Source: Antedon mediterranea
Lineage: Eukaryota; Echinodermata; Crinoidea; Comatulida; Antedonidae
Assembly (NCBI RefSeq): GCF_964355755.1
Contig: NC_092674.1
Location: forward strand, 15,195,001-15,259,000
Reading direction: 5' to 3'
Length of the DNA: 64,000 nucleotides
Shown here: piece after piece, positions 19,691-62,177 of the stretch
How positions within the stretch are numbered: position 1 is the stretch's first letter
Layout: the number at the start of each line of letters is the position of its first letter
Made by a program: the position numbers and the translations under genes
The notes under the pieces: model-generated
Seen by the model: only the letters and a program-made list of their open reading frames with translations
Databases searched by the model: none
What the model was told of the DNA's origin: nothing

Positions 19691-19754
19691 TGAGAATAAG
19701 TGGACATTACTCAAGAGTATCATTTATGATGAGAGGCAAGTACATTTTTTGTGT

Positions 19755-20225
19755 GATATGCTATTGTGCTATTGAAGTCTAAGGGTTAAGTGTTACTGCT
19801 ATAGCTCGAAAAGCAGTTGTGGTTGCTACTGATATGCTATTATGCTATTGAAGTCTGAGGGTTAAGTGTTACTGCTATAGCAGCTATTTCTGCTATAGCT
19901 CGAAAAGCAGTTGTGTTGCTACTGATATGCTATTATGCTATTGAAGTCTGAGGGTTAAGTGTTACTGCTATAGCAGCTATTTCTGCTATAGCTCGAAAAG
20001 CAGTTGTGGTTGCTATTGATATGCTATTGTGCTATTGAAGTCTGAGGGTTAAGTGTTACTGCTATAGCAGCTATTTTTGCTATAGCTCGAAAAGCAGTTG
20101 TGGTTGCTACTGATATGCTATTGTGCTATTGAAGTCTGAGGGTTAAGTGTTACTGCTATAGCAGCTATAGCTCGAAAAGCAGTTGTGGTTGCTATTGATA
20201 TGCCATTGTGCTATTGAATTCTAAT
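19755..20225. repeat. Satellite of about 94 bp, six copies
   Basis: Units starting GATATGCTATT at 19755, 19831, 19924, 20018, 20112 and 20197 have spacings of 76, 93, 94, 94 and 85 bp. The shorter spacings reflect loss of the palindromic GCTATAGCAGCTAT part. No coding meaning is evident. Confidence 0.85.
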
Positions 20226-20880
20226 AAAGGCCTGTTTTTACTACGACGATAACTATAATGATACACGATATAACAAAATTGCTTACCGTAAGTTAAAGTC
20301 AATAGAACCTTTAAATTTAAATTGTTGCAATATTGTTGTTTTAATCTACCAAGCAAACTGAATTTCCATTTTTATGGACAAATTAAATTTCTTGAATCTT
20401 GAATCTTTAACACTAGGTCGATAACTATACGATTCTATCATGTACGATAAAAAATAGTATACATACCACTTGCATGAGCAATATTTTATTGGGACGCGAA
20501 CGATAAAAATATTTCAACTATAGCAGCTATAGCTCGAAAAGCAGTTGTGGTTGCTATTGATATGCCATTGTGCTATTGAATTCTAATAAAGGCCTGTTTT
20601 TACTACGACGATAACTATAATGATACACGATATAACAAAATTGCTTACCGTAAGTTAAAGTCAATAGAACCTTTAAATTTAAATTGTTGCAATATTGTTG
20701 TTTTAATCTACCAAGCAAACTGAATTTCCATTTTTATGGACAAATTAAATTTCTTGAATCTTGAATCTTTAACACTAGGTCGATAACTATACGATTCTAT
20801 CATGTACGATAAAAAATAGTATACATACCACTTGCATGAGCAATATTTTATTGGGACGCGAACGATAAAAATATTTCAAC
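20157..20880. repeat. Perfect 362 bp tandem duplication
   Basis: 20157-20518 and 20519-20880 appear identical base for base. The unit starts in the satellite (GCAGCTATAGCTCG) and ends TAAAAATATTTCAAC. It includes GGCCTGTTTTTACTACGACG and several CGATAAC/ATACGAT motifs like Harbinger-type termini, and it lies just upstream of a MADF exon. Confidence 0.9.
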
Positions 20881-27441: not shown

Positions 27442-27579
27442 TGGAAACTGAATTCATTTGATGTACGAAAAGAAATATTGTTATCTTACTATAATTCCAT
27501 TATTCTCGGTTTATACAGCTATTGTTTGGTTTGCTGGGGTGGAAACATGTCACAAGGTGGTAGGGACAGACTACAAAGG
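27442..27579 (+). pseudogene. LINE reverse-transcriptase scrap that seeds the 54 bp array
   Basis: In the frame starting at 27442 the peptide includes KLNSFDVRKEILLSYYNS, LYSYCLVCWGGN and MSQGGRDRLQRLV. This fits the post-palm region of RTE/CR1-like LINEs ('V-C-W-G-G-N ... R-L-x-R-L-V'). Beyond this point the sequence is taken over by copies of its own last 54 bp. Confidence 0.65.
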
Positions 27580-28443
27580 TTGGTTTGCTGGGGTGGAAAC
27601 ATGTCACAAGGTGATAGGGACAGACTACAAAGGTTGGTTTGCTGGGGTGGAAACATGTCACAAGGTGATAGGGACAGACTACAAAGGTTGGTTTGCTGGG
27701 GTGGAAACATGTCACAAGGTGGTAGGGACAGACTACAAAGGTTGGTTAGCTGGGATGGAAACATGTCACAAGGTGATAGGGACAGACTACAAAGGTTGGT
27801 TTGCTGGGGTGGAAACATGTCACAAGGTGGTAGGGACAGACTACAAAGGTTGGTTAGCTGGGGTGGAAACATGTCACAAGGTGATAGGGACAGACTACAA
27901 AGGTTGGTTTGCTGGGGTGGAAACATGTCACAAGGTGATAGGGACAGACTACAAAGGTTGGTTTGCTGGGGTGGAAACATGTCACAAGGTGGTAGGGACA
28001 GACTACAAAGGTTGGTTTGCTGGGGTGGAAACATGTCACAAGGTGATAGGGACAGACTACAAAGGTTGGTTTGCTGGGGTGGAAACATGTCACAAGGTGG
28101 TAGGGACAGACTACAAAGGTTGGTTAGCTGGGGTGGAAACATGTCACAAGGTGGTAGGGACAGACTACAAAGGTTGGTTAGCTGGGGTGGAAACATGTCA
28201 CAAGGTGGTAGGGACAGACTACAAAGGTTGGTTAGCTGGGGTGGAAACATGTCACAAGGTGATAGGGACAGACTACAAAGGTTGGTTTGCTGGGGTGGAA
28301 ACATGTCACAAGGTGGTAGGGACAGACTACAAAGGTTGGTTTGCTGGGGTGGAAACATGTCACAAGGTGATAGGGACAGACTACAAAGGTTGGTTTGCTG
28401 GGGTGGAAACATGTCACAAGGTGGTAGGGACAGACTACAAAGG
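27526..28443. repeat. Minisatellite, 17 x 54 bp
   Basis: Exactly seventeen 54 bp units beginning TTGGTTTGCTGGGGTGGAAA. Variation is limited to a few sites: TTTGCT/TTAGCT, GGTGGT/GGTGAT and one GGGGTGG/GGGATGG. Because 54 is a multiple of three and no unit has a stop in two forward frames and one reverse frame, long open frames of about 320-340 codons arise as by-products. In one of them the unit reads CWGGNMSQGDRDRLQRLV, identical in kind to the LINE scrap just upstream. Confidence 0.97.
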
Positions 28444-28473
28444 TTGGTTTGAATTGCCTTATTTAACAACATA

Positions 28474-52708: not shown

Positions 52709-52830
52709 AGCCAAAAAAAACGCGATACAATATATAAAATAGAGGGCGTCCGAATACGGAAACACACCTGTCCGAGTACATATACCAAATACTTTTTTTA
52801 AATAGATATTTATAACATCGAAGAATATTT

Positions 52831-53841
52831 AAAAGATTCTATAATTATTTTTTACGAGGTAAGTTACCTATAAAAATCAACTATCAATCAACTATATCTT
52901 CATCTATTAATGTCAACGCTGGTATACCTCAAGGATCCAACCTTGGGCCACTGTTATTCTCCATATACATAAATGATCTCCCCAATTGTTTATCGTACTC
53001 TTCAATGGATATGTTTGCTGATGATACCATAATTTACAATTCTAGCGATAAGGTAGACGATATTGTAACCAATCTTAATTTTGACTTGGATAAAATCTCC
53101 ACTTGGCTTCTAGCTAATAGTCTTGCGCTCAATACTAAAAAAACTGAAGTGATGGTAATTGGAACGCCACAAAGGCTTTCTTTACTCGGGCCTATAAATG
53201 TTTCTATTAGCAACTTACCTATCAAACAGGTTACCCAACATAAGCATCTTGGCATCATTCTTGACCATCATCTTACTTTTATTCCGCACGTTGATAAGTT
53301 GTGCAACAAATTAAGTTCCTCTATCTCCATCCTCGCCCGAACTCGAAAATTTGTCCACCAAGCTACATCTCTTATGTTATACAATGCTCTTGTCTTACCT
53401 CATATTGACTATTGTTGTTCTCTCTGGGGCTCACGAGCACCACTCGTTGCTAAAGTCCAGAAACTTCAAAATAGAGCTAAAAGAGTTATCTTGAAAGTTC
53501 ACCCTCATACCCCATCCCACCTTATTGATAACACCATTTCTATCTCATCCGTTTCTCAACGTTATCAGTTTCAACTTGGTTGTCTCGCCTATCGGGCTTC
53601 CATCAATACCGTTCCGGATTACATCAGTCGCATGTTAACCAGGACTCAGCCCGGAGGTCGACCTACTACCAGATCCATCTCTAATTGTAATTATTTTATT
53701 CCTCGACCTTCTTTAGAGATCTTTAAACAATGTTTCAGTTATAAAGCGCCTATGTATTTTAATATGATTCCTAAAATCATTCGACAATCTGAAAATGTTA
53801 TTTCCTTTAAACGTGAACTTAAACAATTTATTTCCAGTTAA
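52831..53841 (+). pseudogene. LINE-C reverse-transcriptase C-terminal half, intact 3' flank of the array
   Basis: Here the sequence truncated in units 1 and 2 continues: GIPQGSNLGPLLFSIYINDL, MFADDTIIYNSS (53011 on), then NTKKTEVMVIG, KHLGIILDHHLTFIPHVDKL, LVLPHIDYCCSLWGS and KLQNRAKRVIL, the successive post-palm blocks of CR1/Jockey-type LINEs. It is open from 53005 to the TAA at 53841. Endonuclease and the front of the reverse transcriptase are missing, as in a 5'-truncated insertion. Confidence 0.85.
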
Positions 53842-55057: not shown

Positions 55058-55827
55058 ATGCCGAAAACAACTAAAGCGAATAAGGACCAATCACCTTACA
55101 CCAGCACAAAGGAAAATAGCGCAAATTCCAACCTTGATAGGAAGAATGCGGATAATGGCGGCCTAGCTGACGGTGAATTGGCGGACATAATACTCACTCA
55201 AATACAAAGTTTTTTCGATGATAATTCGGATATGATGTCTAACATTGCTACTAAGGTTACTACAATGATTAAAACACAACTGGCTGCAGATTTAACTGAG
55301 CAAATAGTCAAGGCCACAATTGATAGCCTAAATTCAAAACTTAACGATCAAAGTGATCGTATAAAAACACTAGAAGAAAAAATTCAGAAAATGGAGGATG
55401 ACATGACGAATCTGAACAATATTCCAGACGGAACTGCTTAATTTTATATGGCGTTCCCGAGCAAACAAACGAAAACACCGATAATAAGGTAATTGACATT
55501 ATTTCTAATAAACTATCTGTTACTGTACATCCTAAGGACATTGATAGAAGCCATAGGCTCGGTCCAGTACGCAATAAAAACCCAAGAGGTATTATAATCA
55601 AATTTAGTAACTATAACAAACGATACGAGGAATATAGAGCCAAGAAGTACCTACAGAACTCAAGATTGTACATTCACGAAAACTTGACAATAAAACGCTC
55701 TGGCCTTTTGAAGTAGGTCAAGCGCATGTTCAGTACAAACATTAAGGCAACGTGGACCCAGGATGGTAGGATACATGTTTTATCGAATTTGGACAAAAAA
55801 GTCTTGATTTTTAAACAATCAGTGTAG
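55058..55827 (+). pseudogene. LINE-B ORF1 protein gene (coiled coil and nucleic-acid-binding part)
   Basis: An ATG at 55058 opens a charged protein with a predicted coiled coil (DSLNSKLNDQSDRIKTLEEK, residues about 90-125). One frameshift near 55435 moves to LILYGVPEQ, KDIDRSHRLGPVR, PRGIIIKFSNY and YIHENLTIKRSGLLK, the RRM/C-terminal pattern of LINE ORF1 proteins, with a TAG at about 55714. It then continues to WTQDGRIHVLS and stops at 55827. Such proteins coat element RNA. ORF2 follows about 190 bp downstream on the same strand. Confidence 0.75.
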
Positions 55828-56177
55828 ATCAATCATATTTAATATCATTCGTTTATTTGTAGCTTAGTGTATCTCAAATTTTTTAACTTTTTAAGAACTT
55901 TTTTTAAAAATCTTTTTGAACTTTTTAGAACTTTTTTACTCCATTTAGTTAGTTGTTGTAGTATATATTTTTATATTTTTTTAACAAACTGTCTTGTTTT
56001 TAAATCATTTTTAACGTTTATGATAACGTAATTGACCAGGTCTGCTCTGCCTATGATGCAAACATTAATAATACGTATATTGCACCTAATGAAATCCATA
56101 CATTAGATACATTTAGTAATGACGCTTTTTCTTTGCTACATTTAAATTCCCGAAGTCTGCCTCTTCATTTTGATGAA

Positions 56178-58964
56178 ATATCAACCCTCTTATCTTACTC
56201 TGGACACAAATATCATCCCTATTATCTTACTCTGGACACAAATATCATCCCTATTATCTTACTCTGGACACAAATATCAACCCTCTTATCTTACTCTGGA
56301 CACAAATATCATCCCTATTATCTTACTCTGGACACAAATATCAACCCTCTTATCTTACTCTGGACACAAATATCAACCCTATTATCTTACTCTGGACACA
56401 AATATCATCCCTATTATCTTACTCTGGACACAAATATCATCCCTATTATCTTACTCTGGACACAAATATCAACCCTATTATCTTACTCTGGACACAAATA
56501 TCATCCCTATTATCTTACTCTGGACACAAATATCAACCCTCTTATCTTACTCTGGACACAAATATCAACCCTATTATCTTACTCTGGACACAAATATCAT
56601 CCCTATTATCTTACTCTGGACACAAATATCAACCCTATTATCTTACTCTGGACACAAATATCAACCCTATTATCTTACTCTGGACACAAATATCATCCCT
56701 ATTATCTTACTCTGGACACAAATATCAACCCTATTATCTTACTCTGGACACAAATATCATCCCTCTTATCTTACTCTGGACACAAATATCAACCCTATTA
56801 TCTTACTCTGGACACAAATATCATCCCTATTATCTTACTCTGGACACAAATATCAACCCTCTTATCTTACTCTGGACACAAATATCAACCCTCTTATCTT
56901 ACTCTGGACACAAATATCAACCCTCTTATCTTACTCTGGACACAAATATCAACCCTCTTATCTTACTCTGGACACAAATATCAACCCTCTTATCTTACTC
57001 TGGACACAAATATCAACCCTATTATCTTACTCTGGACACAAATATCAACCCTCTTATCTTACTCTGGACAACACAAATATCAACCCTCTTATCTTACTCT
57101 GGACACAAATATCAACCCTCTTATCTTACTCTGGACACAAATATCAACCCTATTATCTTACTCTGGACACAAATATCAACCCTCTTATCTTACTCTGGAC
57201 ACAAATATCAACCCTATTATCTTACTCTGGACACAAATATCAACCCTATTATCTTACTCTGGACACAAATATCAACCCTCTTATCTTACTCTGGACACAA
57301 ATATCAACCCTATTATCTTACTCTGGACACAAATATCAACCCTATTATCTTACTCTGGACACAAATATCAACCCTATTATCTTACTCTGGACACAAATAT
57401 CAACCCTATTATCTTACTCTGGACACAAATATCAACCCTATTATCTTACTCTGGACACAAATATCATCCCTATTATCTTACTCTGGACACAAATATCATC
57501 CCTCTTATCTTACTCTGGACACAAATATCAACCCTCTTATCTTACTCTGGACACAAATATCAACCCTCTTATCTTACTCTGGACACAAATATCAACCCTC
57601 TTATCTTACTCTGGACACAAATATCAACCCTCTTATCTTACTCTGGACACAAATATCAACCCTCTTATCTTACTCTGGACACAAATATCAACCCTCTTAT
57701 CTTACTCTGGACACAAATATCAACCCTCTTATCTTACTCTGGACACAAATATCAACCCTCTTATCTTACTCTGGACACAAATATCAACCCTCTTATCTTA
57801 CTCTGGACACAAATATCAACCCTCTTATCTTACTCTGGACACAAATATCAACCCTATTATCTTACTCTGGACACAAATATCAACCCTCTTATCTTACTCT
57901 GGACACAAATATCAACCCTCTTATCTTACTCTGGACACAAATATCAACCCTATTATCTTACTCTGGACACAAATATCAACCCTCTTATCTTACTCTGGAC
58001 ACAAATATCAACCCTATTATCTTACTCTGGACACAAATATCAACCCTCTTATCTTACTCTGGACACAAATATCAACCCTCTTATCTTACTCTGGACACAA
58101 ATATCAACCCTCTTATCTTACTCTGGACACAAATATCAACCCTATTATCTTACTCTGGACACAAATATCAACCCTCTTATCTTACTCTGGACACAAATAT
58201 CAACCCTATTATCTTACTCTGGACACAAATATCAACCCTATTATCTTACTCTGGACACAAATATCAACCCTCTTATCTTACTCTGGACACAAATATCAAC
58301 CCTATTATCTTACTCTGGACACAAATATCAACCCTCTTATCTTACTCTGGACACAAATATCAACCCTATTATCTTACTCTGGACACAAATATCAACCCTA
58401 TTATCTTACTCTGGACACAAATATCAACCCTATTATCTTACTCTGGACACAAATATCAACCCTATTATCTTACTCTGGACACAAATATCAACCCTATTAT
58501 CTTACTCTGGACACAAATATCATCCCTATTATCTTACTCTGGACACAAATATCATCCCTCTTATCTTACTCTGGACACAAATATCAACCCTCTTATCTTA
58601 CTCTGGACACAAATATCAACCCTCTTATCTTACTCTGGACACAAATATCAACCCTCTTATCTTACTCTGGACACAAATATCAACCCTCTTATCTTACTCT
58701 GGACACAAATATCAACCCTCTTATCTTACTCTGGACACAAATATCAACCCTATTATCTTACTCTGGACACAAATATCAACCCTATTATCTTACTCTGGAC
58801 ACAAATATCAACCCTTTTATCTTACTCTGGACACAAATATCAACCCTCTTATCTTACTCTGGACACAAATATCAACCCTATTATCTTACTCTGGACACAA
58901 ATATCAACCCTATTATCTTACTCTGGACACAAATATCAACCCTATTATCTTACTCTGGACACAA
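56178..58964. repeat. Minisatellite, 87 x 32 bp, inside the LINE-B endonuclease
   Basis: 2787 bp equals 87 units of 32 bp (ATATCAACCCTCTTATCTTA...) plus 3 bp; the extra ACA is in the unit near 57069. The unit is the LINE-B coding sequence for ISTLLSYSGHK. The array enters and leaves the gene at that same stretch. Variation is mostly CAACCCT/CATCCCT and CTCTTATC/CTATTATC. No unit contains a stop in any forward frame, so all three frames stay open for 900 codons or more. Confidence 0.97.
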
Positions 58965-59852
58965 ATTTAGTATTCTAGGATTCACAGAAACATGGATTAA
59001 GGATAAAACCTATATTGATCATCTTAAACTTGATGGTTATAATATGATAAACAAAAACAGAGAAGGTAGAGAGGGAGGTGGAGTCAATCTATATGTTAAA
59101 GAAAGTTTAAATTTCAAATCACGACCTGACTTGACTATAGATGATAATATATCCGACTCGCTCTTCATTGAAATTTCCCAAAAAACTAAAAATATTATTG
59201 TTGGTATTATTTACCGCCCTCCTAGCTCTCCGATTTCCGATTTCCGATTTTACTGATAATCTTGAAAAGGTCCTCCATGCAGTTAAGGAAAATAAACACT
59301 GCTTTATTCTAGGCGATTTCAATATTGATATTAGTAAAAATAAAGCTAATACCAAAACATGTATTGATACCATTGAATCTTCCTCTTACTTTCCATTAAT
59401 AAACAATCCAACTGTAACTGAAACAACTGCAACACTTATAGATAATATTTTAACTAATTATAGAAATCTGAATCCTGAACCATTACAATCTGGTATTATT
59501 ACATCTGAAATAACTGACCATTATACCATTTATATTATTTTGAATTATCTCAATATGCCCTTACATAACACGGCATCATCTACAAAAATTAAAATCATTA
59601 ATCAAACTACAATTAATGATCTTATTACTAAAATTGTGCAAATTAATTGGAATCCACTTTACAATTCAAATGACACTAATATATAGTTATATGTTTATTA
59701 AAGAAATACAAGATGCGATTGAACAAACTAAAATTCCATCTAAAACACCTAAACCAAGAAAAAAATCATATAAAAAAACCATGGATTACTAGAGGTATTC
59801 TTAAGTCAATCAATAAAAAAAATGTATTATATAAAAAACATTTAAAAATGTA

Positions 59853-60351
59853 TTGTCCCTTGAAACACAAAAAATAAAAAAAAAAATATTCTAATTTTAA
59901 ATTGGTCATATCAAAGTAATATTAAAGATATTCACTTTAAGTCGAAAATTCGAGCCAAAAACAACAGTTTACGTAATTAACAGGTAAATTAATTAGATTA
60001 CATTTCGTCTGAGAAATCGTCGCAAGCGAAAGTAAACAAAGATTTCAAACCATGAGTATGCATTATGCATGATGCTAATTAGGATTGTTTACAACTTATC
60101 ACGGTTGAGAAGGTGTTTTCACACAGATCGCGAGGAAGTTTTATGATTATCCATACAGAGTAGCCAAACAAGTGCATTGCATTATGGGATATGTTTTGAT
60201 TGAAAACTTTGACTGGAAGTCAAAGTTATTTTTTGAACAAAAAAACATCTGTATTTTGCTTAAATTATTTTTTTTTGGACTAATTTTTTGTGAAAGTTAA
60301 TAACTATTATGATACTTCAAAATTTTTTTTTGGAATTAGTCAAAGGGACAA
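59853..60351. mobile_element. MITE in the LINE-B linker, TA target site
   Basis: 499 bp with inverted ends TTGTCCCTTGAAAC and, on the other strand, TTGTCCCTTTGAC, flanked by TA on each side (59851-59852, 60352-60353). The LINE-B reading resumes right after it. The interior is non-coding, AT-rich and contains the palindromic ATGCATTATGCAT. TA target duplication suggests a Tc1/mariner-type mobiliser; that is inference. Confidence 0.75.
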
Positions 60352-62177
60352 TACATCTTTAAAATCCCCAACACAATTAAATATATCAAAATTTAAGAAA
60401 TATAGAAATATGCTTACTAATCTAATCAGAATTAGTAAACGTAATTATTATTCTCGTATTTTATTTAATGCTTCTAATGACGCAAAGCAGACTTGGTCAA
60501 TTATTAATGTCAATGTGCTCGGCAGAAAGAAACATGTTACTGTCTTACCCGACTCTGAAGGTCATAACAAAGTAGATATTGTCAATAATATTAATAAACA
60601 CTTCAATGAAGTAGGAGAAAATCTTGCCAAAAACATTGTCTTGCCTGTAAATAAAAACTACAAGCAATACCTTAATGGCAATTTTCCAAATTCAATTTAT
60701 TTTAAGCCCACTGATAATTTAGAAATTATTTCTATTGTTAATAAAATGAAACCATCTAACTCTGAAGGCATTGATGAAATTAGCAGTAAATTACTTAAAT
60801 ATATTATTCCATATGTAGCGTCACCTTATCATACATCTTTAATTTATCACTTGAAAGTGGTGTTGTACCTGAGCTAAGCAAAATAGCAAGGATATTTCCT
60901 CTATTTAAGTCTGGTGATAAAAACATGTTTAATAATTATCGTCCAATATCCATTTTACCTGCTCTATCAAAAATCTTAGAGCGTATTGTTTATAACCGTT
61001 TGTATTCCTTTTTAGATAAATTTGCTATCATCCACAAAGAACAATATGGGTTTCTTAAAAACAGTTCAACCTTTATGGCTATACTTAATCTTATTGAAAA
61101 AGTACAAGCTGCCTTAGATAGAGGAGATACTGCTATTGGAATATTTATTGACCTGAGTAAGGCCTTCAATACGATTGACCATTCGATTTTATTATGGAAA
61201 CTTGAATACTATGGTATTAGGGGGTCTGCACTATCTTGGTTTAAAAACTATATATGGAAGAAGGCAATATACAGTCATTAATGGAATTTCTTCTGAACAC
61301 ACAACTAATAATTATGGAATACCCCAAGGAAGTATTCTTGGGCCATTATTATTTATCATATATATAAATGATATTTTTATTTCTTCAAATATTTTAAACA
61401 TGACTTTATTCGCTGACGATACAAATCTGTTCTTATCAAACCCCAATTTGAATACACTTATTGATATTGTTAATTCTGAACTTATTAAAATTGATAAATG
61501 GCTTAGGTGTAATAAACTTTCTCTTAACTGTGATAAGACTAGATATATAATTTTTAGAACTAAAAGAAGTAAAATTAATGTTAATAATATATCCATTAAA
61601 ATTGCTGATAAATCTATATCCCAAACAAATTACTATAAGTTTTTAGGAGTCTTCGTTGACGAATTTGTTAATTTTAAAACTCATATTGATCTCACCACTT
61701 CAAAAATATCTAAATATGTTAGTTTACTTTTCAAAATTCGTCACTACCTTCCTTTAAGTGCACTCCTTTCAATCTATAAGTCACTTATGCAACCTCTTAT
61801 CAGCTTTTGTAACATTATTTGGTTTAATTCATATGCTTCTTATACTGATAAACTTGTTAAACTCCAGAAAAAAGCGATACGAGCTATAACTTAATTGGTC
61901 TGATTATCGTGCACCAACAAGTCCTCTCTTCCACATACATAATGTATTAAAAATTGACGATATTCATAATTACCAAATTGGCATTTTTATGTTCCGAATA
62001 TTGAATAATCCTGATTTACGATTTTTAAACCTTAAAAATTTTACTGATGGTAATGGTCATAAGTACAATACTAGAGGAAAATGTAAACTTCGACCTCCTC
62101 TTCGAAGACTAGTTTCTACAAGTCATAGTATTGCTGTTTCGGGTCCTCATGTCTGGAACAACTTAGATATGACTTAA

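Follow-up and report, generated by a model that had tools for sequence, protein, structure and literature searches.

How does a long tandem array come to lie within the coding sequence of a retrotransposon? This question is raised by a locus of Antedon mediterranea, which we analysed in a window of 64,000 nucleotides (C5:15195001-15259000; the window is this whole stretch) and against the full assembly, scanned as 354 Mb in 18 contigs. At window positions 56176-58966, TRF delimited a tract of period 32 with 87.1 copies, 97% matches and a score of 5156. It is thus a head-to-tail array of highly identical units within the 10-100 bp range of minisatellites. The length of 87 x 32 + 3 given by the first-pass annotation proved exact, 56178-58964 spanning 2,787 bp. 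If each unit is read on the + strand as AAAT followed by 28 bp, the first one begins at 56176, and the periodic tract closes with an extra AAAT at 58963-58966, after which LINE sequence (TTAGTATTC) resumes. A search for RNA families returned none at gathering score within the window.

Parsing of the array by script resolved 87 head-to-tail units of low diversity. The commonest type, ATCAACCCTCTT, accounted for 38 units, followed by ATCAACCCTATT (33 units, the last one clipped by the slice used for the parse), ATCATCCCTATT (11 units) and ATCATCCCTCTT (3 units). These four types, distinguished by just two variable sites (A/T and C/A), make up 85 of the 87 units. Of the remaining two, one carries a private T (ATCAACCCTTTT), and the other, the sole unit with a 3-bp insertion, represents a further private mutation (GGACAACACAAAT; 57044-57078, + strand, limits taken from the gap between adjacent pattern matches).

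The element hosting the array is a LINE, with an endonuclease followed by a reverse transcriptase domain, which, from the style of its motifs, may belong to the CR1/L2/Jockey group. The 5′ part of its ORF2, with the start of the endonuclease, occupies 56004-56175 (+ strand) in a frame open from 56004, and the endonuclease continues past the array (FSILGFTETW..., 58967-59256, + strand) in a different frame. The array breaks the endonuclease reading frame between HLNSRSLPLHFDE upstream and FSILGFTETW downstream. Relative to a one-unit state the net gain is 86 x 32 + 3 = 2,755 bp, that is 1 mod 3, which places the two endonuclease halves in different open frames (56004-58970 and 56146-59256). The endonuclease fragment alone gave a weak, below cut-off match to PF03372 (E 0.047), and the two endonuclease pieces of the window returned no Pfam match when searched; a relative, L034, passes the cut-offs for PF03372, PF14529 and RVT_1. 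Further downstream, a reverse transcriptase fragment (61157-61894, + strand) matched RVT_1 with an E of 5.1e-12, in a frame differing from that of the preceding reverse transcriptase part. Upstream, an ORF1-like open stretch of 127 aa (55058-55441, + strand), with four Pfam matches each under its cut-off, probably belongs to the same LINE.

The closest copy of this LINE lies on the minus strand at C2:27015505-27016479, and the window element is 91% identical to it across 55962-56211. Comparison of the window element with this C2 copy gave 48 differences over 2,232 aligned bases (2.15%), the array, the inserted stretch, gaps and one 34-bp HSP being left out of the count. The inserted stretch, extra in the window element at about 59848-60357, corresponds to a MITE-like insertion (59841-60363) whose terminal inverted repeats measure 21 nt and which is not in the C2 copy. 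With the frame shift caused by the array, the MITE-like insertion and additional frame changes within the reverse transcriptase, the array-bearing LINE copy is dead.

Other repeats were observed in the neighbourhood. Just upstream of the array-bearing LINE, a unit of ~7.0 kb occurs in three tandem copies (32193-52945) that are 99.3-99.5% identical; this triplication is recent. The unit contains LTR-element-like pieces, recognised by eye, and its third copy is overlapped by a LINE-type RVT_1 stretch (52816-53841). Tandem repeats of 94 bp and 362 bp, the latter as two copies with 100% matches, occupy 19754-20880.

The first-pass annotation had held that the unit consists of the LINE's own codons, amplified in place, and had named as its refutation the occurrence of the array as a dispersed satellite with no relation to the LINE. 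The C2 copy provided direct evidence on the first point. It carries exactly one unit at the site of the array, within LINE sequence that is continuous on both sides, and this unit matches, base for base, the second most frequent unit of the array. We then scanned the 354 Mb for the unit pattern, allowing up to 3 mismatches and using the reversed pattern as control. Matches numbered 86 on C5, all within the array, and one on C2, against none with the reversed control; the 87th array unit was missed because of its 3-bp insertion. Whereas a dispersed satellite should form arrays at many loci, the assembly holds one array and one single unit.

Relatives of the element led to the same picture. In a protein search with the endonuclease fragment, for which 150 of 1,218 candidates were scored, 146 of the 150 covered the unit site in places of at most 351 bases and up to 114 residues (read from the table by eye), evidence that is weaker than the pattern scan, an array-bearing copy being reportable only in part by such a search. 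Relatives covering the site within so few bases have no space for an array. The other scored rows were the window copy itself and three rows that start past the unit start and are uninformative on the unit. Furthermore, TRF found no array at the site in twelve relatives (L027-L038). We considered whether a satellite or minisatellite family could have been hit by insertion of the LINE, or could itself have inserted into it. Nothing in the data spoke for such a family, and the single unit of C2 within uninterrupted endonuclease sequence, the similar protein sequence of relatives running across the unit site and the failure of the genome scan to find the unit beyond the array and the C2 copy all speak against it. 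Withheld or missing stretches aside, the pattern scan rules out a dispersed satellite for this assembly, and an origin from such a family is extremely improbable. We conclude that the unit is LINE coding sequence that grew into an array at its own site, at a single locus in this assembly.

What could have set off the first duplication? In the C2 copy, AAAT stands on either side of the unit at a spacing of 32 bp, and the same words frame the array in the window (left word 56176-56179, right word 58963-58966, both + strand), the left one belonging to the 4-bp direct repeat around the lone unit of C2. At the C2 locus, 3.2% of 3,602 breakpoints tested for a 32-bp period have at least 4 bp of identity, and a chance level of 3% makes the 4-bp words a weak indication. 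For the model of Haber and Louis (1998), the sections consulted of PMC6947457 give flanking direct repeats of 5-10 bp, so that the 4-bp AAAT repeat falls short of that range. In human, according to the portion consulted of another study, only about 6% of the tandem repeats derived from transposons have a beginning that established mechanisms explain (PMC3389668). The 32-bp piece of endonuclease coding sequence between the two AAAT words would have undergone a single duplication, with slippage during replication or unequal exchange between these words as the most likely cause.

Had the 2,787 bp accumulated the changes that fall to a single lineage in the LINE divergence, they should carry ~30 substitutions. 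This is an upper-end figure, since some of the 2.15% may have arisen before the window copy inserted. Observed were a single private substitution, the private 3-bp insertion and two columns with two states shared among units. This deficit suggests that the array grew late or that it undergoes homogenisation; an old array kept uniform by gene conversion could appear young. The order of the unit types provided a further clue. A string of 14 unit types occurs twice, from units 34 and 67. None of 500 shuffles of the array contained a repeat of this length (longest 11), and one of 400 first-order Markov strings did (longest 15). The block signal is nonetheless modest, because only two columns vary.

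Exchange between units was also considered in the light of the two variable sites, of which all four combinations are present among the units. Two of the three TC-type units lie between a TA-type unit and an AC-type run, the pattern expected from exchange, but both are within the repeated block and count as one case only, and the third does not fit. Runs at site 1 numbered 21 against a mean of 24.5, and those at site 2 numbered 37 against a mean of 45.5 (229 of 5,000 shuffles were as low); both deviations are weak. Taken with the repeated 14-unit block, the scarcity of private mutations suggests recent or continuing growth by several units at a time, and multi-unit exchange is a likely though unproven route. 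The array may also vary in length between individuals, as the first-pass annotation proposed, a trait that not every definition of a minisatellite demands.

An alternative is that the array was born when the LINE itself was copied, its polymerase slipping on the template during reverse transcription or integration, instead of by later replication slippage or recombination. Two LINE fragments on C2 have to be described in this context, L003 (2192-2345, C2:19.71 Mb) and L006 (1387-1501, C2:23.93 Mb). Both carry a stretch foreign to the LINE, 94% identical between them over 94 aligned bases and found at those two places only. Next to it their homology to the array-bearing LINE begins, within a few bases of the AAAT/TTAG junction that marks the end of the array. 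This junction may accordingly be a switch point, and a birth during copying would agree with the array being present in the window copy only, as judged by the genome pattern scan. However, the mutation load is below that expected of an array as old as the LINE copy, the 14-unit block is repeated within the array, and L003 and L006 may share one ancestral event, which would reduce their coincidence with the site to a single observation. We regard birth at reverse transcription or integration as unlikely. We are instead rather confident that a minisatellite confined to one locus arose within one dead LINE copy, by slippage or unequal exchange at the AAAT words, and that it is functionless. The slippage, the succession of events and the neutrality of the array are what we infer; inactivity of the LINE copy, present from the start or acquired later, would explain why the array was tolerated.

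The first-pass annotation had pointed out that all forward frames are open despite a period not divisible by three, and the list of open reading frames confirmed this: the three forward frames are open throughout the 2.8 kb of the array, while on the reverse strand the unit is interrupted by stops in every frame. Such openness could be taken as the mark of a repetitive protein under selection, with at most about 1,036 residues. However, among 20,000 shuffled units 15.7% were stop-free in all three forward circular frames, as were 580 of 7,969 32-mers drawn from the reading frames of four closely related LINE copies. Open forward frames are therefore unremarkable, being expected in 7-16% of comparable units, and they are common to all units because they were inherited from one founder. 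Openness is a property of the founder unit, 32 bp is no whole number of codons, and the host LINE copy is itself broken; we therefore do not prefer the reading as a selected protein, for which we see hardly any chance. As far as the evidence goes, nothing specific can be assigned to the array as a function. The stop-free unit calls for caution in annotation, since a gene finder could call from it an accidental repetitive protein with as many as 1,036 residues.

The window holds a second array of LINE origin. At 27526-28451, 17 in-frame units of 54 bp (18 codons) derive from the coding tail of another LINE. This unit was detected at five places: as a single unit on C4 (C4:242470-242528), two units on C11 (C11:18546388-18546501), 14 units in two blocks on C3 (C3:14416201-14418031), the 17 units on C5, and about 25 units on C7 (C7:14621076-14622423; about 25 by TRF, 24 by core motif). 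Similarly to the 32-bp array, this repeat has a LINE coding unit, high identity and a known one-unit copy (C4). In contrast, its 18-codon unit keeps the frame, and it stems from a different LINE and a different part of the gene. It also occupies four loci with partly shared variants, and so has moved or recurred. TTTGC/TTAGC variants are common to the C3, C5 and C7 arrays and two other variants to C5 and C7, and this partial sharing points to common descent of the 54-bp arrays over independent growth. The C5 array is flanked by matching LINE on its left side for only 83 bp.

Further arrays were seen near copies of the LINE carrying the 54-bp unit, namely a 65-bp x 10.5 array in L042 (1757-2435, C4:0.24 Mb) and a 17-bp x 30 array in L041 (3187-3700, C11:18.55 Mb). 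Two other candidates were discarded. A 49 bp x 6.7 array in L037 (669-995, C2:34.85 Mb), considered as a third LINE-internal array, ends at most 3 bp from where the LINE sequence it has in common with sister copies begins, and hence lies outside the LINE. An 86-bp duplication in L036 (1140-1307) lies outside the stretch aligned with the LINE flank of L037 (1391-1500). A broader reading, which we put forward only tentatively and consider rather doubtful, is that LINE coding segments are recurrent nurseries of minisatellites, the 32-bp array having remained where it was born and the 54-bp array having spread with its low-copy LINE to four loci. If true, the protein-coding tail of that LINE would be a mobile VNTR of 2, 14, 17 or about 25 units.

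Expansion of a repeat inside a retrotransposon gene had been called unusual by the first-pass annotation. With the second LINE-derived array in the window, this is too strong, and minisatellites and satellites derived from transposable elements, LINE ORF2 included, are already covered in the consulted parts of published work (PMC6947457, PMC9659126, PMC3389668). As these sources describe them, transposon-derived minisatellites of the Haber-Louis type resemble the array in their 10-100 bp unit taken from the element, their short bounding direct repeat and their growth in place (PMC6947457, PMC3389668). The array differs from them in its bounding word of 4 bp against 5-10 bp, its source in LINE endonuclease coding sequence, its 87 copies and its period, which is not a multiple of three. 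The LINE ORF2-related satellite DNAs listed in the sections seen of PMC9659126, PROsat of Phodopus, Pvc20 of a seal and HinfI/CR1 of chicken, likewise represent a LINE coding part turned into a tandem repeat, but they are named satellite DNAs of their species, whereas the 32-bp array is one locus of 2.8 kb.

Taken together, these results establish the 32-bp array as a clear case of a known route of tandem-repeat birth. A single genome contains the grown array together with a one-unit copy and its bounding words, so that this minisatellite birth is well documented, and the 32-bp and 54-bp arrays suggest that LINE coding sequence may serve as a system for studying how arrays are born.
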